Positions 6,003 through 37,263 of a DNA stretch of 58,822 nucleotides are shown piece after piece. A model generated the notes under the pieces. It saw only the letters and a program-made list of their open reading frames with translations. It was not told where the DNA came from and made no database searches. The first letter of the stretch is position 1. Each line of letters begins with the position of its first letter. The stretch comes from Candidatus Paceibacter sp. (GTDB taxonomy: Bacteria; Patescibacteriota; Minisyncoccia; Phycocordibacterales; BOKC01): positions 7,018-65,839 of the forward strand of contig DYGD01000001.1 in assembly GCA_020724885.1 (NCBI GenBank), written 5' to 3'. The position numbers were made by a program, and so were the translations under genes.

Positions 6003-7123
6003 AAAAAATTCAAATTCTGGCAATTCTGGCGATTATCATTTTTCTCTCTTTGCCCGGGAACTCTTTCAGCCAAGAAATCCACCGCGACTTCCAAGGAACT
6101 TGGAAATCAAAAGTTGAAAGGGTTTTACAAGAAGAAAGGGTTCTGATCCCAGGGACAAACACGGAAACAACAGTCCAAACTCTTGAAGCCACAATTATGG
6201 AAGGAGACAGAAAGGGAGAGCTAATAACTTTCCAAAATGATTATCTGCCTCTTAAAACCGGAGATGTCTTCTTTTTGAACTTTTTAATAACCATAGACGG
6301 CCAGGAAATATTTTCAGTAAGAGATGTTGACCGACGCCCGGTTCTTCTGTTTTTCACACTGATATTCGGCTTGGCGGTTATCGCCTTCGGCGGTTGGCAA
6401 GGTCTCCGCGCTTTGATAGGTTTATTCGGAACTTTTTTGGTAATCATCTTCATCCTCCTGCCCCTGTTGTTGAAAGGGTACCCGCCGGTCTTAACCAGCA
6501 CATTCATTTCAACAATAATACTTTTTTTGGCCATATATTTTACTCACGGCTTTAATAGAGAATCAACTGTAGCTTTTACCGGAACAATAATCGCGGTCTC
6601 TTTGACAGGAATTCTGGCTTACTCGGCGGTCAGATTAGGTCGTCTGACAGGATTTGCCAGCGATGAGGCAATATACTTGAACTTCAGCACTTACGGACAA
6701 TTGGACTTATCCGGTCTTCTTCTGGCCGGCATAATAATCGGTGTCCTGGGAGTATTAGACGACATTTCTATAACTCAATCGGCGGTAGTAAGCGAGCTTT
6801 ATGGGGCAAACCCTAATCTTTCCAGAAAAGAAACCTACCACAAGGCCTTAAGAGTCGGTCGAGAACACGCTGGCGCATTAGTTAATACCCTGGCTTTGGC
6901 CTATACCGGCGCCGCTCTTCCCTTGCTCTTGCTTTTCTCAATATCCGAATCCGGTTTCAGTATGATAGTCAACCAAGAAATTTTTGCTTTGGAAATACTA
7001 AGAACCATCGTCGGCAGTATTGGCCTTATTCTAACTATTCCTGTCACGACTTTGATTGCGGTTTTTGTTCTGGAAAAATATCGAGGGCGCAAGCCAGAAG
7101 TCACTCACGGTCATGTGCATTAA
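5984..7123 (+). CDS. YibE/F family membrane protein
   Basis: Multi-TM, GVLDDISITQSAVVSELY motif of YibE/F; overlaps the Fur-family ORF by 19 bp. Confidence 0.85.
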   Translation: MQKMLLKKIQILAILAIIIFLSLPGNSFSQEIHRDFQGTWKSKVERVLQEERVLIPGTNTETTVQTLEATIMEGDRKGELITFQNDYLPLKTGDVFFLNFLITIDGQEIFSVRDVDRRPVLLFFTLIFGLAVIAFGGWQGLRALIGLFGTFLVIIFILLPLLLKGYPPVLTSTFISTIILFLAIYFTHGFNRESTVAFTGTIIAVSLTGILAYSAVRLGRLTGFASDEAIYLNFSTYGQLDLSGLLLAGIIIGVLGVLDDISITQSAVVSELYGANPNLSRKETYHKALRVGREHAGALVNTLALAYTGAALPLLLLFSISESGFSMIVNQEIFALEILRTIVGSIGLILTIPVTTLIAVFVLEKYRGRKPEVTHGHVH

Positions 7124-7165: not shown

Positions 7166-7326
7166 GGGGTTGTTTGAGATATTCTCTATAACATTTGTCA
7201 GGGAGTTCAAATTGCTCCGTCCCTTGGGTCGGACGCTGAGAGCACCCACCTATAACTTTATAGGGCAAATGTCTTCAAATGACCCCCGATTAAGGCCTCT
7301 CCATTTGTTTCCGGAGGGGTTTTGAT
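7166..7326 (+). ncRNA. ssrS: candidate 6S RNA
   Basis: Own promoter; 5' GGGGUUGUUUGAGA pairs with UCUUCAAAUGACCCC, then ACAUUUG/CAAAUGU; CACCCACC followed by small hairpin CCUAUAACUUUAUAGG as in 3' side of 6S bubble; own terminator. Confidence 0.6.
7297..7326 (+). terminator. intrinsic terminator CCTCTCC...GGAGGGGTTTT
   Basis: 7-bp stem plus T tract. Confidence 0.75.
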
Positions 7327-7333
7327 TTGAAAT

Positions 7334-7741
7334 ATGGCCGGAAAAATTTTAAACATAATCTTAGGTTCGATAGTGGCAATAGCCATCGCCCACACTTTGG
7401 CTTTGAAATTTTATCTTTACTACGAACTTTGGTGGTTTGACATTCTAATGCATTTTGCCGCCGGCGCCTGGACAGTTCTATTTTTTCTTTGGCTTTTGTT
7501 TTTTTCAGATTTTTTTCTATTGGACGTGGAGAGAAAAAATTTTTTACTCACCTCTGCCCTGTCTATCTCTTTTCTGTTTCTGGTTGCCGTCGGTTGGGAG
7601 ATTTTTGAATTGCACTTCGGTTTAACATTTATAGAAGATTCGGATTACTGGCAAGATACAATTTCTGATATCTTTTCGGCTCTTTCCGGCGGGCTTTTAA
7701 CTTTGTGGCTTTTCTTTCGGGCGGTCTTCACAAAATTTTAA
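7334..7741 (+). CDS. DUF2238/YjdF-like small integral membrane protein
   Basis: WWFDILMHFAAGAW..WEIFE...DTISDI..G. Confidence 0.6.
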   Translation: MAGKILNIILGSIVAIAIAHTLALKFYLYYELWWFDILMHFAAGAWTVLFFLWLLFFSDFFLLDVERKNFLLTSALSISFLFLVAVGWEIFELHFGLTFIEDSDYWQDTISDIFSALSGGLLTLWLFFRAVFTKF

Positions 7742-24635: not shown

Positions 24636-25154
24636 CTAAGCGCGGAGGAACAGCCGGCAACCGGCTCTCCAAACACATTCATGTAGGTCAGACTCAGCGC
24701 CCCAGCCCCAGCCATAACCGGAGTACACACCAATCAGTCTGACACACACGACCGCAAGCGCAAGAGGGTCATCTTCAGTCAGAACTAAGAAGAGAACATG
24801 CTTAATGTTGAGGAGGAAGTGGCCAGTCACCCCATCCCACGAATCGTTCAACACATAATTCCACTGATCCACCGCGTGGCGGATCTGACTGGGGGTAAAG
24901 ATGTGTTTCTCGCGAACAACCTCCTCACCTCCGGCTGCTTCCACTATCTCGTCAATCGTCATGTCATGATCCAGAGTGTACCCCTGGAATCTCATTGCCG
25001 GGGTTTCTCCATCACGCATCCGAACGGGAAGAAGATCCCGTTGATGGAAGGGTGAACTGGGATCTACGCTCGCCGTAAGGAAAGCATCAGCCCTCGACGA
25101 GAGAGCCGGAATCTCCAGAACAAAGTCCTTGGCAACGGAGAGTGTCCCTGTCAT
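24636..25154 (-). CDS. orphan hypothetical protein inserted between fusA and tuf
   Basis: ORF with SD AGGAG, own promoter (25330-25357) and terminator. Confidence 0.6.
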   Translation of the reverse strand: MTGTLSVAKDFVLEIPALSSRADAFLTASVDPSSPFHQRDLLPVRMRDGETPAMRFQGYTLDHDMTIDEIVEAAGGEEVVREKHIFTPSQIRHAVDQWNYVLNDSWDGVTGHFLLNIKHVLFLVLTEDDPLALAVVCVRLIGVYSGYGWGWGAESDLHECVWRAGCRLFLRA

Positions 25155-25391: not shown

Positions 25392-27527
25392 TTATTTCCT
25401 CGCCTCAATAATTTCCTGCGCAACATTGGGCGGAACAATGGCGTAATGGTCAAATTCCATCATCGCCGTGCCACGACCTTCGGTCATGGAACGCAAGGAG
25501 GTGACGTAACCAAACATTTCCGAGAGCGGGACTTTGGCGACGATTGATTTCAGTTCGCCTTTATCTTCCATTGATTCAATCACACCCCTTTTTGAATTCA
25601 AACTGCCGGTAATATCACCCATAAACTTTTCCGGCACTACCACTTCAACTTTCATCACCGGTTCAAGCAAAACCGGCTTGGCGCGTTTGGCTGCTTCTTG
25701 AAAGGCCTGCGAAGCGGCGATTTTATAGGCAATTTCTGAAGAGTCAACATCGTGGTAAGAGCCGAAAGTCAGTTCGCAAGAGATGTCGGTCATCTTGTAA
25801 CCGGCAACAACCCCTCTTTCCATCGCCTCTTTGACACCCTTTTCAACTGCCGGAATGAATTCCTGCGGAATGACACCGCCCTTGATAGAATCAATAAATT
25901 CAAAGCCCTCATCTCGTTTAATATTTTTCGGCAGTTTTTCCGGCGCCGGCCCGAGTGGCTTGACATTGATTTTAACATGGCCGTATTGTCCGCGGCCGCC
26001 GGTCTGTTTGATGTATTTATTTTCAACTTCAGCAGTGCCGGTAATGGTTTCCTTATAAGCAACCTGCGGCTTGCCGACATTGGTCAGAACACCAAACTCC
26101 CTTTTCATTCGGTCTACCAAAATTTCAAGATGAAGCTCGCCCATACCCATAATGACCGTCTCACCGGTTTCCGGATCACTCTTGACTCTGAAAGTCGGGT
26201 CTTCATCAGACAACCTCTTTAATGCAATGCCCATCTTCTCCTGATCAGCTTTGGTCTTTGGCTCAACTCGAAGCGAAATAACCGGCTCCGGAAATTCTAT
26301 TTTTTCTAAAATAATCGGCTCGCTTTCATCACAAAGTGTGTCGCCGGTCTTGGCATTTTTCAAGCCAACTGCCGCTGCGATTTCTCCGGCATAGACGGTT
26401 TTAACTTCCTCTCTTTCATTGGCGTGCATTCGCAAAATCCGACCGAGCCGTTCGCGTTCGCCGGTAGTGGCATTATAAACATAAGAGCCGGCAGAAATTA
26501 TGCCCGAATAGACCCGAAAATAGGTTAATTGGCCAACATAGGGGTCGGTCTGTAATTTAAAAGCCAAAGCGGCAAAGGGTTCCTCATCGCTTGAATGTCT
26601 TTCAATCGATTCTTCGGTCTTGGGATCAATGCCTTTGATCGGTGGGACATCTGTCGGAGACGGCAAGTAGTCAACGACCGCATCCAAAACCAACTGTACC
26701 CCTTTATTCTTCAAAGCCGAACCAGTGAAAACCGGTACAATTTTATTTTCAATAACCGCCTTGCGCAAAATCCTTTTAAGATCAGCGAATGGAATCTCTT
26801 GGCCTTCAAGGTATCTACCCATCATCTCTTCATCGTTTTCAACAATTTTTTCAACCAGTTCGGAGTGGTATTTCCGGGCAAGCTCTTTATGGCTGTCAGG
26901 AATTTCAGCTTCGCGGACAGAATTGCCCATTTCTCCATCAAAGTAATAGGTCTTCATCTTGAGAACATCAATAATCGCCTCAAAGGCGCTTTCTTCGCCA
27001 ATCGGGATCTGCATTCTAACGGCGTTTTTAGTCAAACGTTTCAAAATTGATTGAAATGATTTTTCAAAACTGCCACCCATCCGGTCCAATTTGTTAATAA
27101 AACAAATTCTTGGAACTCTATACTTGTCGGCTTGTCGCCAGACGGTCTCGGATTGTGGCTCTACTCCAGCAACTCCGTCAAACACAACAACTCCACCGTC
27201 TAAGACCTTGAGCGACCGCTCTACTTCCACAGTAAAATCCACGTGTCCCGGGGTATCAATAATATTGAAACGGTGTTTCTTGCTCTGGTCTGTTTTATCT
27301 TCATAAGTCGGAACCCAAAAGCAGGTGGTCGCCGCCGAAGTGATGGTAATACCCCTTTCTTTTTCCTGCTCCATCCAATCCATAATGGCCTGACCTTCGT
27401 GAACCTCTCCGATTTTATGGGAAACTCCGGTATAAAAAAGCACCCTCTCGGAAGTAGTGGTCTTGCCAGCGTCTATGTGGGCGATAATGCCGAAATTTCT
27501 TACTTTTTCTAGTGGATAATCTCGCAT
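25392..27527 (-). CDS. fusA: elongation factor G
   Basis: Full-length EF-G. Confidence 0.98.
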
Positions 27528-27534
27528 AAAAACT

Positions 27535-27563
27535 AATTACAAATCTAATATAAATATACAAAT
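27535..27563. repeat. left terminal inverted repeat of GxxExxY element
   Basis: AATTACAAATCTAATATAAATATACAAAT; 25/29 complementary to 27953-27981. Confidence 0.85.
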
Positions 27564-27564
27564 T

Positions 27565-27954
27565 TCAACCTCTGATATTTAAAATTCTCTTGAATTTCAC
27601 CTCATCCGTCCCAAACTGTGCAATTATTCCTAGTTTTAGATTCTTGGCTTTTAAGTAACTTAGAATTTGGTCTATATTTCTTTTGCTAACTCTATTTCCT
27701 TTTTTTAATTCAAGAACAATTTTATCTTCTATCAATAAATCTAAATAATACTTTCCTATAACCTTATTCCTAAACTTCACTGGAAAGTAGACCTGTCTGT
27801 TATGTTTTATTCCATTTTCCGTTAATAAGCTTGAAACGGCTTCTTCATAAACTTTCTCCTTGTGTCCAGGACCAATCGTGTTATAAACTTCAAACAGAAA
27901 CCCAACTATTTTATAGCTCAATTCTGGATAGACCAGTTCTGAATCTTTCTTCAT
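27565..27954 (-). CDS. GxxExxY family protein
   Basis: FEVYNTIGPGHKEKVYEEA...YYLDLLIEDKIVLELK. Confidence 0.92.
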   Translation of the reverse strand: MKKDSELVYPELSYKIVGFLFEVYNTIGPGHKEKVYEEAVSSLLTENGIKHNRQVYFPVKFRNKVIGKYYLDLLIEDKIVLELKKGNRVSKRNIDQILSYLKAKNLKLGIIAQFGTDEVKFKRILNIRG

Positions 27955-27981
27955 TTGTATATATGTATCGGATTTGTAATT
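27953..27981. repeat. right terminal inverted repeat of GxxExxY element
   Basis: ATTTGTATATATGTATCGGATTTGTAATT. Confidence 0.85.
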
Positions 27982-27990
27982 GGCTCTTCA

Positions 27991-28461
27991 TTACCATGCG
28001 AAGTGAGCAAAGGCCTTATTGGCCTCCGCCATCTTATGGGTATTTTCCCTCTTTTTTACCGCCTCGCCTTCGTTTTTGCTTGCAGAAATTATTTCATCGG
28101 ACAATCTTTCTTTCATTGGCTTACCTTTTTTATTTCTGGCTGCCTCTACAATCCATTTCATGGAAAGCGCTTGACGTCTCTCGGCCCTGACTTCTCTAGG
28201 AATTTGATAATTGGCGCCACCGATCCGACGAGACCTGACTTCCATTGAGGGCGCGGTATTTTTCAGCGCGGTCTCAAATATTTCCAAAGGATCTTCTGTT
28301 TTGGTTTTTTGGGAAAGTAAAACAAGGGTGTCGTAAACAACCTTTCTGGCAACCTCTTTCTTGCCGTCTTCCATCACATAGTTAATAAACTTCTCAACTT
28401 TCGGCGAGTCATACTTGAAATCCGGCTTTAATTTTCTTTTGTTTTTTATTTTTCTACGCAT
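27991..28461 (-). CDS. rpsG: 30S ribosomal protein S7
   Basis: Family sequence. Confidence 0.97.
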
Positions 28462-28574
28462 GATTTAACTTACAACCTATACCACCTCTACTACCTATAC
28501 AACCAATACCAACTACCGGTTGAATTGTGTGGATGTCGGTTTAATTGCTGTTTTTGTTGTAAAGGTTGTCAGTG

Positions 28575-30427: not shown

Positions 30428-31156
30428 TCAGAAGACGGCTATCAAGATGGCGATCGCCATCGAGACAAGAGCCACGACGCTGAAGAAACGGAACGCCCTG
30501 ACGTCTTCTTCGTCGAAGACGGCGAAGAAGGCGCCGACGGCGGCGAGGGCGGCGGCGGCGAGGGCGAGGAGGGCGGGGAGGGCGAGGAGGGCGGGGAAGT
30601 CGGGGAAGTCGGGGAAGTCGGGGAAGGCGGCGAGGAAGGCGAGGAAGGTGGCGAGGAAGGCGAGGAAGGTGGCAGCACCTATTTTCTTGCTTTTCAGCAC
30701 GTTGCTAATAAGCAAGAGACCGAGTGAACATACCGCCAAGAGACCGAAGGGGTTGGCCTTCTCCACCTCTCGGAGAACTCTTTCCGCCTCGCTTTTCGGC
30801 GCCCGGATGTCCAAGACGTCTCCTTCTCGCACCAGGACCAGCTTGTTTTCCCTCGTCTCCGCCCATGTCCAGAGGCCGACCATCCGCTGGTCAAACACCT
30901 TCGTTCTGACCGGCAGGAAGTCCCGTTCTTCGGCGATCAACTGCTTGATCGCCTCGGGGTACTTCATTGCCTCCGGAGTAGCCGTGAGACCGGTCTCCGT
31001 GTAGGACACTTCCTCTGACTGAAATCTGACACTGCCGTCAGAGCCGACGAGAACAGGTCTCGGCTCGCTCTCTTGAGCTTGAGCCAGGACAGGGACACTT
31101 GCCACGACAAGCACCACTAGCACAGCGAGAACAGCCAGCTTACCTTCTTCTTTCAT
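30428..31156 (-). CDS. orphan secreted/membrane protein with repetitive Phe/Leu/Ala/Pro TM region
   Basis: Signal peptide, SD AGGAGG, TTGACA-16-TATAAT promoter at 31215-31242. Confidence 0.65.
   Translation of the reverse strand: MKEEGKLAVLAVLVVLVVASVPVLAQAQESEPRPVLVGSDGSVRFQSEEVSYTETGLTATPEAMKYPEAIKQLIAEERDFLPVRTKVFDQRMVGLWTWAETRENKLVLVREGDVLDIRAPKSEAERVLREVEKANPFGLLAVCSLGLLLISNVLKSKKIGAATFLAFLATFLAFLAAFPDFPDFPDFPALLALPALLALAAAALAAVGAFFAVFDEEDVRAFRFFSVVALVSMAIAILIAVF
30592..30671. repeat. tandem repeats: 9-mer cggggaagt x3 (+1 variant) and exact 21-mer x2
   Basis: 30592-30618 and 30630-30650/30651-30671. Confidence 0.9.
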
Positions 31157-31236
31157 CGTTCATTCCTCCTGTTGGGGTTGGGTCTTCTGATTTCAAATTC
31201 ACAAATCCGACCGGATTATATATTAAAGTAATTTTT

Positions 31237-31358
31237 TGTCAAATTTTTTGAGTGAGTGAAACTACAACCCCCGGACTTTAATTGTCCGCCCATCCGACCT
31301 AAACAAAATCGTGCCGAGGTCGTAGTTGCCAAGGGTTTTGACTCCGTTGTTTTGCAGA
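31237..31358. repeat. 122-bp direct repeat, copy 1 (truncated duplicate of MBL gene 3' end plus -35 box)
   Basis: One mismatch to 33160-33281 (31252 vs 33175). Confidence 0.95.
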
Positions 31359-31442
31359 AAATAAAAACAAATTTTTAAATGTTAACAATTTAGCGCGAAC
31401 GTCTTGGAATTGTTAACATGAGAAATTAATTAAGCAATGAAA

Positions 31443-31470
31443 AACCCGCCGGATACGACCCCGGCGGGCT
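31443..31470 (-). terminator. intrinsic terminator after SPFH gene
   Basis: CCCGCCGG...CCGGCGGG with T tract on minus strand. Confidence 0.75.
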
Positions 31471-31487
31471 TGGAGAGAACATGCTGG

Positions 31488-32756
31488 TTAGTTGTTGTTG
31501 CCACTGACCTCAAGGTCGAGCGCTAGATCCCTGGCTGCCTTGACAGTCAGAAGATTGATGAAGTCGAGAGCGCCACCGCCGACTGCCTGATTGAAGCCTC
31601 CGTTGCCACCCATGACGACCGACGGCACCCAGGCCCCTTGGTAACCGCGGATCGCATCAGCGAACATGCGATTGACCTCGAGATAGGCCTCCAACTTCTT
31701 GTCCAGTGCTCCATCGGCAGACATGACCAGTTCCCGCCGGCGCGCTTCGCCCTCGCCAAGCAGAATTTGCTCCTGCTTGCGCAGATCGGCAGTATCCAAG
31801 TCGAGTTTGGCGACATCGCGCCGCTGTTCGGCCTCGGTCACCGCCTGTGCCTTGAGCACTTCCTGCTTCCACTTGGCTTCGGCCGCGGCTGCCTTACCCT
31901 TCTGCTCGGCGGTGATGGCCTCCTGCTCCGCCTTCTTGGCGGTAGCAATCGCGGTCTGAACCTCCATGATTGCTTCCTGCTGCTGGCGGATCTGGCTCAG
32001 AACGTTGCCGTCGTAGGAAACTTCGTTCAAAGACAAGTTGAAGATTCTGATGCCGAAGTCGCCAAGCGGGGATTCCGCTTCGCGTCGGTAGCCGAAGTCT
32101 TGCGGCCGTTCGCTCTCCACAAGCTCCACCACCCGTACGGTCTTGGTGTGACCAGTGATCGGATCAGTGGTTCGCTCGTCCCGCGACCGGGTAGCATAAG
32201 TGCCGTACTTGATCTGATCATCGATAAGTCGCAGAAGATCGTTACGCCTCGAAGCGTACGACTCAGCGGAAGTCATCAGGGGACCAGTCATGTAGACGCT
32301 CTTCTCCACCACTGTGCGGATAAGCTGCTGCTCGATCGCCCGAGGACTGCCGTAGCGAGTGTGCAATCCTCGAAGATTGTCCTCGTCGAGCGGCATCTCC
32401 CAGGAGAGCGAGCCGGAGATGTCGGCGCTGGCGCCGTCGTTGAAGAGGACCCGAATGGCATCCTCAGCGTCAGTGCCCTGACCCTCCTTAGAGGAGAACC
32501 AGAAGTGGGCGCGCTTCGGATAAGCAGTAACATAACCGAAGCCCTGCCACTTGATGCCGGGAGTAGAGTGCCAAGTCAGCTTGCCACTGATCGGACTCTG
32601 GATGACGACAACCTCGTCGGCATCGACGTTCTCAAACAACTTGAACGCCGAAAGCGAACCAGCGATGGTCAGAACCAACGCCACAATCACCAACATGATG
32701 TGCAGGGGATTGGGGTTGGCCGGACGCTCGTCACGACTCAATCTGCTCTGACTCAT
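31488..32756 (-). CDS. SPFH/Band 7 (prohibitin-like) membrane protein
   Basis: N-terminal TM, SPFH-like body, long Ala/Glu/Lys coiled coil. Confidence 0.75.
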   Translation of the reverse strand: MSQSRLSRDERPANPNPLHIMLVIVALVLTIAGSLSAFKLFENVDADEVVVIQSPISGKLTWHSTPGIKWQGFGYVTAYPKRAHFWFSSKEGQGTDAEDAIRVLFNDGASADISGSLSWEMPLDEDNLRGLHTRYGSPRAIEQQLIRTVVEKSVYMTGPLMTSAESYASRRNDLLRLIDDQIKYGTYATRSRDERTTDPITGHTKTVRVVELVESERPQDFGYRREAESPLGDFGIRIFNLSLNEVSYDGNVLSQIRQQQEAIMEVQTAIATAKKAEQEAITAEQKGKAAAAEAKWKQEVLKAQAVTEAEQRRDVAKLDLDTADLRKQEQILLGEGEARRRELVMSADGALDKKLEAYLEVNRMFADAIRGYQGAWVPSVVMGGNGGFNQAVGGGALDFINLLTVKAARDLALDLEVSGNNN

Positions 32757-32823
32757 ACTTTTCCTTTCTTCCTGTTTTGTTCGGCTGAACTTTCTTCAGA
32801 CCGAAAGTGAGTGAATGAGGATT

Positions 32824-33075
32824 TCAATCCTCATCGAGATCGAGAACTTCCAGAGCTCTATTAACATCCTCCTCGGCGCCCCGAACGATTCGAGCGTCTC
32901 CAAGAGTATACCTAGACTTCATGGCCTCCGACTCCACAGTTCTTCCTCCCCTGAAAATAAAACGAATGACCGGAAACGGTCTCGTCCTATTGAACAGGGG
33001 GAGAATGATCTCCGAGAGTAAAAGACCCAACAGCATGGCCAGGGCCAGAAACACCAAGAGTCGCAACAGAAACAT
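32824..33075 (-). CDS. 83-aa small membrane protein upstream of SPFH gene
   Basis: N-terminal TM; SD AAGGAGG; same operon. Confidence 0.65.
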   Translation of the reverse strand: MFLLRLLVFLALAMLLGLLLSEIILPLFNRTRPFPVIRFIFRGGRTVESEAMKSRYTLGDARIVRGAEEDVNRALEVLDLDED

Positions 33076-33137
33076 GGATTGTGCCTCCTTCTCGGCCTAA
33101 GCCGGGTTATGACAAGTTGCAAACTAACTCTTTTTTA

Positions 33138-33165
33138 ATTATAACAAATCAAATAAAAATGTCAA
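33138..33165 (-). promoter_or_regulatory. promoter TTGACA-16-TATAAT of the SPFH cassette
   Basis: Consensus boxes on minus strand. Confidence 0.8.
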
Positions 33166-33281
33166 ATTTTTTGAATGAGTGAAACTACAACCCCCGGACT
33201 TTAATTGTCCGCCCATCCGACCTAAACAAAATCGTGCCGAGGTCGTAGTTGCCAAGGGTTTTGACTCCGTTGTTTTGCAGA
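33160..33281. repeat. 122-bp direct repeat, copy 2 (native MBL gene 3' end)
   Basis: See copy 1. Confidence 0.95.
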
Positions 33282-34048
33282 GTTTCCAAAACTTCCTTGT
33301 GCGGATGTCCGTATTTATTGTCCCGACCGGCTTGAATAACGGCAATGTCCGGCCGAACCGCTTTGACGAAAGAATCAGAAGTAGAGGTCTTTGAACCGTG
33401 GTGGCCGACCTTTAGAACATCGCTTTTTAGAATCTCACCGTCCAGAAAAACCAGATATTCTTCAATCTTTATCGGCGCGTCGCCGGTGAGCATAAAAGAA
33501 TTCTCGCCAAAAAATAATTTGCCGACGATAGAAGCATCGTTGGGGTTGAGTCCCGAAACATCCCTGTCCGGGAAAAGGACGACGAAAACTGCGCCGCCGC
33601 CCAAATCAACAAACATTCCTCTTTCAGCAACAATTCGCTTGGCTGGCGATTCTTCCGCTAAATAATTAAAGTTATCGACAATTCTGGTAGGGTGAGCTAC
33701 TCCTGATTCAATAATAAGATCGGTTTCAAATCTCTCCAAAATTGGAATAAAACCGCCGATGTGGTCAGCATCCGAATGGGTAACGAGCAATACTTCTATC
33801 TTTCGGTCATGAAAAGGCAGAGATTTTGACAAAGAATCCAAGACCGCGCCTCCCTGGCCAGCATCTATGAGCATTTTGTTGCCAGATGGCGATTTTATCA
33901 AAATAGCGTCCCCCTGCCCGACATCAAGAAAATAAACCCGGAGAGAAGAATCAGATGACCAGACGAAATTCCAAATAAAGAGATTAGAAACCGCCAAAAA
34001 TCCCAAAGTCAAAAACCAATGATACTTTACAAAAAATGATTTCATCAA
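33185..34048 (-). CDS. ComEC C-terminal-like metallo-beta-lactamase-fold protein
   Basis: LDVGQGDAILIKSPSGNKMLIDAG, THSDADHIGG. Confidence 0.88.
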   Translation of the reverse strand: MMKSFFVKYHWFLTLGFLAVSNLFIWNFVWSSDSSLRVYFLDVGQGDAILIKSPSGNKMLIDAGQGGAVLDSLSKSLPFHDRKIEVLLVTHSDADHIGGFIPILERFETDLIIESGVAHPTRIVDNFNYLAEESPAKRIVAERGMFVDLGGGAVFVVLFPDRDVSGLNPNDASIVGKLFFGENSFMLTGDAPIKIEEYLVFLDGEILKSDVLKVGHHGSKTSTSDSFVKAVRPDIAVIQAGRDNKYGHPHKEVLETLQNNGVKTLGNYDLGTILFRSDGRTIKVRGL

Positions 34049-36228: not shown

Positions 36229-36258
36229 GAGACAATTTGACGATCGCCAAATTGTCTC
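36229..36258. promoter_or_regulatory. CGATCG-core palindrome copy 2, overlapping -35/spacer of the regulator promoter
   Basis: GAGACAATTTG-ACGATCGC-CAAATTGTCTC; TTGACG 36237-36242, TATAAT 36259-36264. Confidence 0.85.
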
Positions 36259-36270
36259 TATAATAGAATT

Positions 36271-36780
36271 ATGAGCTTCACAGAAGATTTACTTTCAACT
36301 CTCACCACTTTGAGTGACTACTCACGGCTTTGGGCTAGAGTTCGCGGGTCTGGAAAGATCTACGGAAGACCTAAATCGGATTCGGTTGACTCTATATCTT
36401 ATAAAACTTTTTGGAAAACTCTCTCCCGTTTGGAACAAAGAGGATTGGTTGAGAACAAAGGCAACCAATGGAAGATTACTTCTCTAGGATTGGACTATCT
36501 CAAAAAACTACAGAGAAAGAAAAAATTACCGAAACACTCCGCCAAATCTCTGTCGTCCAAACCCAAAAGAATGATTATAATTTTTGATATACCGGAAAAA
36601 TTCCGGCGAGAGAGAGCGTGGTTAAGGTTTGAGTTAACAAATCTCGGCTTTGTAATGCTTCAGAAAAGCGTTTGGTTTGGCCCAGCGCCATTGCCAAAAG
36701 AATTTATAAAATCCTTAAAGGAACTGAAAATTTTACCCTATTTGAAATTCTTTAAAGCAACTGAAGAAGAAATCGTTTAA
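36271..36780 (+). CDS. PaaX-like regulator: winged-helix N-terminus plus Cas2-fold C-terminus
   Basis: FWKTLSRLEQRGLVENKGNQWKITSLG (wHTH); RMIIIFDIPEKFRRERAWLRFELTNLGFVMLQKSVWFGP (Cas2-like ferredoxin fold). Confidence 0.75.
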   Translation: MSFTEDLLSTLTTLSDYSRLWARVRGSGKIYGRPKSDSVDSISYKTFWKTLSRLEQRGLVENKGNQWKITSLGLDYLKKLQRKKKLPKHSAKSLSSKPKRMIIIFDIPEKFRRERAWLRFELTNLGFVMLQKSVWFGPAPLPKEFIKSLKELKILPYLKFFKATEEEIV

Positions 36781-36801: not shown

Positions 36802-36843
36802 TCAACGGAGACAACTTGGCGATCGCCAAGTTGTCTCCGTTGA
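36802..36843. promoter_or_regulatory. perfect 42-bp palindrome, CGATCG-core copy 3, abutting -35 of next gene
   Basis: TCAACGGAGACAACTTGGCGATCGCCAAGTTGTCTCCGTTGA; TTGACA 36840-36845, GATAGT 36862-36867. Confidence 0.9.
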
Positions 36844-36942
36844 CATCTGAAACGAGAAAATGATAGTGTCAGCGGAACAAAATCAGCGGTGCTCGTAGCA
36901 CCGCTAACAGACGGGGAAGAAACAGGGGTAAGGAGACATAAT

Positions 36943-37263
36943 ATGGAATGGTTTTGGGTCATAACCATTACCTACGGATGTGTCGCTATAATCGGAGGTA
37001 TTTACTACTTCGCCTTCGTCAGCAGTGATTGCTATCGAGAAGAGGAGGAAGCTGGTCGAGTTCCCATGGATCCTGTCTTCACTCAAGTGATGATCTTTCT
37101 TGTCGTTCCTATACTTTTCGGCATTCTCTGGCTACCGCTGCTCATCGTACTCATGCAAGAGAAGAGAGAGAGGGGGGGTGAAGTGATCCGAATCCAGGAA
37201 GCCGACCCGTCAAACCGCCGGCACTCGCTCGGCGGTTTTTTCATTTTCTCCAACTTTCTATAA
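36943..37263 (+). CDS. orphan two-TM membrane protein (C-terminus possibly frameshifted)
   Basis: SD AAGGAG, ATG at 36943; ORF reads through a terminator hairpin. Confidence 0.55.
   Translation: MEWFWVITITYGCVAIIGGIYYFAFVSSDCYREEEEAGRVPMDPVFTQVMIFLVVPILFGILWLPLLIVLMQEKRERGGEVIRIQEADPSNRRHSLGGFFIFSNFL
37212..37240 (+). terminator. intrinsic terminator AAACCGCCG...CGGCGGTTTTTT
   Basis: Stem plus T6. Confidence 0.75.

Follow-up and report, generated by a model that had tools for sequence, protein, structure and literature searches.

A foreign two-gene transcription unit, encoding a small TM protein and an SPFH protein, may well have been added recently beside an MBL-fold gene of this Candidatus Paceibacter genome by additive recombination. 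The insertion beside the MBL gene is itself well supported, while the overall mechanism is plausible but unproven. Similar repeats surround other gained genes, which makes the repeat at the MBL gene one of several such scars, and it is this recurring scar, rather than the single case, that is the more interesting part.

Results

Two other species of the same genus, G001 and G002, served for comparison; their identity is 97% to one another and about 72% to the studied genome over aligned DNA. In both relatives the gap between the MBL gene and the gene for ribosomal protein L28 is only 73-87 bp and contains neither cassette nor repeat, with SOD lying outside MBL and an M50 peptidase outside L28. 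In the window (the whole 58,822-nt stretch of DNA that was analysed) the L28 gene (29868-30107, plus strand) forms the left flank of the insertion site. Because the site is empty in the relatives, the most likely reading is a gain of about 3 kb in the studied genome, as two cassettes, the SPFH unit and a secreted-type gene. No homologue of the SPFH gene or of the 242-aa secreted-type gene was found in either relative, and the GC content of both genes, near 0.6, exceeds the 0.43 of the genome. An earlier note on this DNA had proposed a recent insertion and advised a search for the empty locus in related genomes. Finding that locus in two same-genus species, together with the GC-rich insert absent from them and a flanking repeat of 99.2% identity, supports the proposal, and the unrelated flanks that the note had named as a possible objection were not seen, since SOD-MBL and L28-M50 are syntenic.

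The direct repeat lies at 31237-31358 (copy 1) and 33160-33281 (copy 2), with 122 bp per copy and a start-to-start distance of 1923 bp. Its copies differ at one position (31252 G, 33175 A), as the earlier note had reported with coordinates that proved exact on recheck, and without interruption they match exactly over at most 106 bp. For random border pairs the longest exact match had a median of 10 and a maximum of 23 bp; the 106-bp block between these borders is far beyond chance. No further copies were found in the 592-kb genome. Copy 2, when read on the minus strand, shares the reading frame of the MBL ORF (33185-34045), a gene resembling the ComEC C-terminal domain whose 3' end is the duplicated target, and comprises the last ~31 MBL codons and the stop followed by 25 non-coding bases in which the SPFH unit has its -35 box. 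Copy 1, also read on the minus strand, encodes the same C-terminal residues (QNNGVKTLGNYDLGTILFRSDGRTIKVRGL, then the stop) and supplies the secreted-protein gene with its -35 box. Since in-frame stops sit just upstream of its codons, copy 1 is an orphan MBL fragment, so that reading frames and upstream stops agree with the earlier view of copy 2 as the real 3' end and copy 1 as the orphan. The near identity of the copies implies either that the event was recent or that gene conversion has held them alike.

On the minus strand both copies end exactly on TTGACA (33160-33165 and 31237-31242), with TATAAT 16 bp later (33138-33143 and 31215-31220), and the boxes that had been noted at these positions are all perfect and exactly placed. 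By consensus match only, they form candidate promoters for the SPFH unit (33138-33165) and for the secreted-protein gene (31215-31242). A perfect TTGACA/TATAAT pair lies near just 4 of the 674 ORFs called in the genome, three of which are lineage-specific GC-rich genes, both cassettes here among them. The common TTGACA need not belong to the duplication, as each cassette could carry its own consensus -35. The earlier idea of a 122-bp leader travelling with cassettes found no support: besides being confined to this locus in the genome, the repeat yielded a 52-mer that does not occur in IMG/VR, and SPFH cassettes in other genomes have no flanking repeats of this kind. What is duplicated is a stretch of the neighbouring gene together with a -35 box.

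The insert between the copies (31359-33159, minus strand) measures 1801 bp with a GC content of 0.54. It encodes, on the minus strand, a small one-TM protein (32824-33075, 83 aa) and the SPFH/Band 7 protein (31488-32756, 422 aa, GC 0.59); a terminator-like G+C-rich hairpin and a T run (31440-31471, minus strand) stand directly past the SPFH stop codon, and an AT-rich inverted repeat (TGTTAACAATT / AATTGTTAACA, 31380-31419), folded as a hairpin, lies between this terminator and copy 1. The second gained cassette is the repeat-rich 242-aa gene (30428-31156, minus strand, GC 0.60), whose product has an N-terminal hydrophobic signal-like segment and for which no relatives were found. The 422-aa protein contains an SPFH domain (Pfam PF01145, E 3.3e-10, 40.7 bits against a cut-off of 23.6) and its residues 25-415 match the PHROG 11908 profile (E 1.4e-54). 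Its model shows an N-terminal membrane helix, an SPFH fold and a long coiled coil at moderate confidence (pLDDT 66.5), with prohibitin and HflK/C as the top PDB fold matches; a sequence search of solved structures gave no match. By analogy with its superfamily, the protein may organise membrane. PADLOC gave no defence-system match for the SPFH, 83-aa or 242-aa proteins, and the search for RNA families at the locus returned nothing credible, with a single sub-threshold match.

Within CPR the SPFH gene has a patchy distribution, being present in 7 of 299 sampled genomes of the order, the studied one counted. Four of the other six matches are at 46-55% identity and two are weaker; the phylum sample adds one genome, with a match at 54%, and two CPR records match at 42-43%. 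Five IMG/VR contigs carry a match (43-53%), two of them with neighbours whose translations read as NAD-salvage genes, and matches are also found in a 462-kb uncultured phage (51%) and in crAss001 (31%). CPR and phage copies are intermixed in the tree, in which many forks are poorly supported. In many of the CPR and phage loci, as in the window, SPFH has upstream of it a gene for a small one-TM protein. The sequence of this protein is little conserved, most copies having a short P...FP.FR-type motif, and the pairing therefore leans on position and shape over sequence. The phage SPFH/Band 7 proteins (PHROG 11908, crAss001 gp91, huge phages) are homologous to the one studied and often share the upstream small-TM gene; unlike them, the studied copy is chromosomal and GC-rich, has its own promoter and terminator, and lies in a CPR genome.

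Local direct repeats were listed in the three genomes and filtered for a length of at least 30 bp, at least 93% identity, not being coding on both sides and not being perfect palindromes, filters that were picked post hoc, after the data had been seen. Under these post hoc filters, 7 of the 8 repeats in the studied genome enclose one or more ORFs that neither relative has, where 1.65 would be expected for random intervals (p=0.0002); one of the filtered cases sits at a contig end. Among them, a 33-bp repeat (C6 5193/6069) surrounds a 0.9-kb insert, a 101-bp repeat (C15 6166/7284) surrounds a gene of GC 0.69, and an exact 74-bp repeat (C15 37384-37457 and 39063-39136) duplicates a gene's 5' end, which is a mirror image of the MBL case, and brackets a unit that appears HicAB-like from its sequences. 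Repeat length differs among the other gained units (33, 74, 101 and 140 bp in the studied genome, 34-43 bp in G002), and the sequences are unrelated from locus to locus.

Between G001 and G002 there are 14 gene-size indels, one with a clean 34-bp duplication and most with none; this 34-bp target duplication flanks an insert in G002 and is single copy in G001. A G002 stretch absent from G001 consists of cassettes, each headed by a 43-bp promoter-bearing repeat. Similar repeats head tandem GC-rich cassettes at C15 5993/7888 and at G002 508-512 kb, the latter with duplicated coding DNA still visible at 81%. There was no preference for convergent pairs (co-directional/convergent/divergent 17/3/2, background 353/63/62), and an end motif, TTAAAATTTAG, common to three cassettes is too rare to judge. 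Tentatively, the genus may gain cassettes of one or two genes, which carry a promoter and a terminator and are often GC-rich, by a recurrent integrase-free process, with tandem stacking via a duplicated, locus-specific leader of ~33-140 bp, so that integron-like arrays would arise from ordinary recombination and shared leader/promoter DNA.

Several other elements were seen in passing. A 316-aa ORF of GC 0.69 lies between two hammerhead-III-like ribozymes (C15 (L022) 6178-6268 and 7299-7383, minus strand) separated by about 1.1 kb; Rfam scored them at 35.2 bits (E 4e-5) and 23.4 bits, in both cases under the gathering score. A PaaX/Cas2-like winged-helix gene in the window (36271-36780) has palindromes on both sides (36229-36262 and 36802-36845), the right one, of 44 bp, having an identical counterpart at contig C10 15072; a gene resembling it (C2 9946-10572) likewise has palindromes at both sides, and perfect 40-52 bp palindromes recur intergenically. 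Repeat pairs at C16 26582-26698 and 26987-27103 (ORF 27486-28463) and at C8 52271-52386 and 52752-52867 differ mostly at A (or T) positions of one copy, and one of them adjoins a reverse-transcriptase-like ORF; read by eye, these pairs are likely diversity-generating retroelements. An identical 72-bp flank with a terminator-like hairpin occurs at two separate islands (C4 11334-11405 and C9 6023-6094). Two raised-GC ORFs of the window that have no Pfam family (24636-25154 and 36889-37263) resemble single-gene cassettes, the first lying within an island absent from both relatives.

Discussion

How might the unit have come to stand between two copies of a gene end? We favour additive recombination, in which the ancestor would already have carried MBL, TTGACA and the secreted-gene cassette, and would have taken up DNA of a sister lineage in which that MBL 3' end was followed by the SPFH cassette. 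Either the fragment would have circularised and entered by a single crossover within the shared 122 bp, or homologous recombination at MBL on one side would have been combined with illegitimate joining on the other. Both options would give R - SPFH unit - R - secreted gene (R being the repeat), with MBL intact and an orphan 31-codon fragment, and would leave each cassette a perfect promoter starting in the repeat. The donor lineage, the uptake route and the recombination step are inferred. The same two routes, one-sided homology with illegitimate joining and circularisation with one crossover, are described in PMC3240628, where foreign DNA beside a homologous anchor would yield R-insert-R, as here; they were demonstrated in laboratory strains, while the present event is known from its scar alone.

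In favour of this proposal stand the repeat at the end of a host gene, the empty syntenic site in both relatives, the GC-rich insert that they lack, the association of such repeats with lineage-specific ORFs, the G002 insert with its 34-bp duplication, and the absence of Ku. The anchor homology is duplicated around the insert at 122 bp and 99.2% identity, the presence of DprA and a ComEC-like region in the genome is compatible with DNA uptake, and variable repeat lengths and sequences are as expected of recombination scars. Against it count the failure to find a donor allele (MBL-SPFH lacking copy 1), the lack of a long duplication at most G001/G002 gene-size indels, and the lack of microhomology at the other junction of the insert. 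Moreover, as the repeat stops exactly at the -35 of both cassettes, the additive route requires shared or convergent promoter sequence.

A staggered break would do away with the need for homology, the 1801-bp linear fragment being joined in and the 122-bp target duplication made by fill-in of long overhangs. We consider this unlikely: duplications of variable length (33-140 bp) and unrelated sequence across loci are in its favour, as are the other indels, mostly with small deletions or none, yet the absence of Ku from the genome argues against Ku-type end joining, overhangs of 122 bases are long, and a cut just past the -35 box with an insert-borne TATAAT at the right spacing would be a coincidence.

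The assembly could also have produced the arrangement, had it merged two strain variants, one MBL-SPFH and the other MBL-secreted, or else a free R-SPFH circle and the chromosome, in one path. An exact repeat of 106 bp exceeds k and makes a graph loop, in which insertion, circle and tandem array look alike. The 55-bp overlap that contigs show at several ends and gaps indicates an assembler k of ~55, not 122; the window is a single gap-free contig between two 100-N gaps, the mismatch tells the copies apart, and similar repeats occur at other loci and in a complete relative, all of which makes a merged path doubtful. A simple k-mer overlap artefact was rejected, because at k=55 a 122-bp repeat with an internal mismatch inside one contig is no such overlap. 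Misassembly, which the earlier note had named as able to overturn its reading, is therefore improbable given k and the gap-free contig, with a residual chance kept pending reads.

Slightly less probable still is that an ancestral unit of MBL end and cassette was duplicated in tandem and one cassette then replaced. The tandem repeat-led cassettes on C15 and in G002, the latter with its duplicated coding DNA, offer a parallel, but the SPFH and secreted genes lack mutual homology and two events breaking at the same -35 box would be required.

A site-specific integrative element is very improbable. Such elements likewise duplicate a gene 3' end as attL/attR and leave the gene intact, as many do by restoring it with the repeat, but the 1.9-kb unit holds only the 83-aa ORF and SPFH and no recombinase, the genome's sole tyrosine recombinase match (PF00589) is on another contig (C10), and no common att sequence is found at other cassettes or around SPFH genes elsewhere. 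The features to compare with an integron gene cassette, defined by an attC site and an IntI integrase, are the AT-rich hairpin at 31380-31419 and the lack of an integrase nearby. As to transposons, no inverted repeat of at least 20 nt joins the insert ends, and the unit has no transposase ORF. The varying repeats, the missing recombinase and the missing terminal inverted repeats argue against a dedicated transposase or integrase, and a transposon with target site duplication does not fit, since the duplications have no fixed length.

CPR bacteria have minimal genomes with few described mobile elements and are thought to take up DNA. Genomic islands of Patescibacteria comprise, in the part of PMC12455944 considered here, many small acquired regions for which competence is one proposed route, as here; flanking gene-end duplications are not described in that part, unlike at this locus. 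A recognisable scar of this kind, with copies of a gene end on both sides of the insert, would allow gains to be counted and roughly dated, and strain-level genomes could then be used to test what part competence plays. Through SPFH, moreover, CPR chromosomal cassettes are tied to giant-phage genes.
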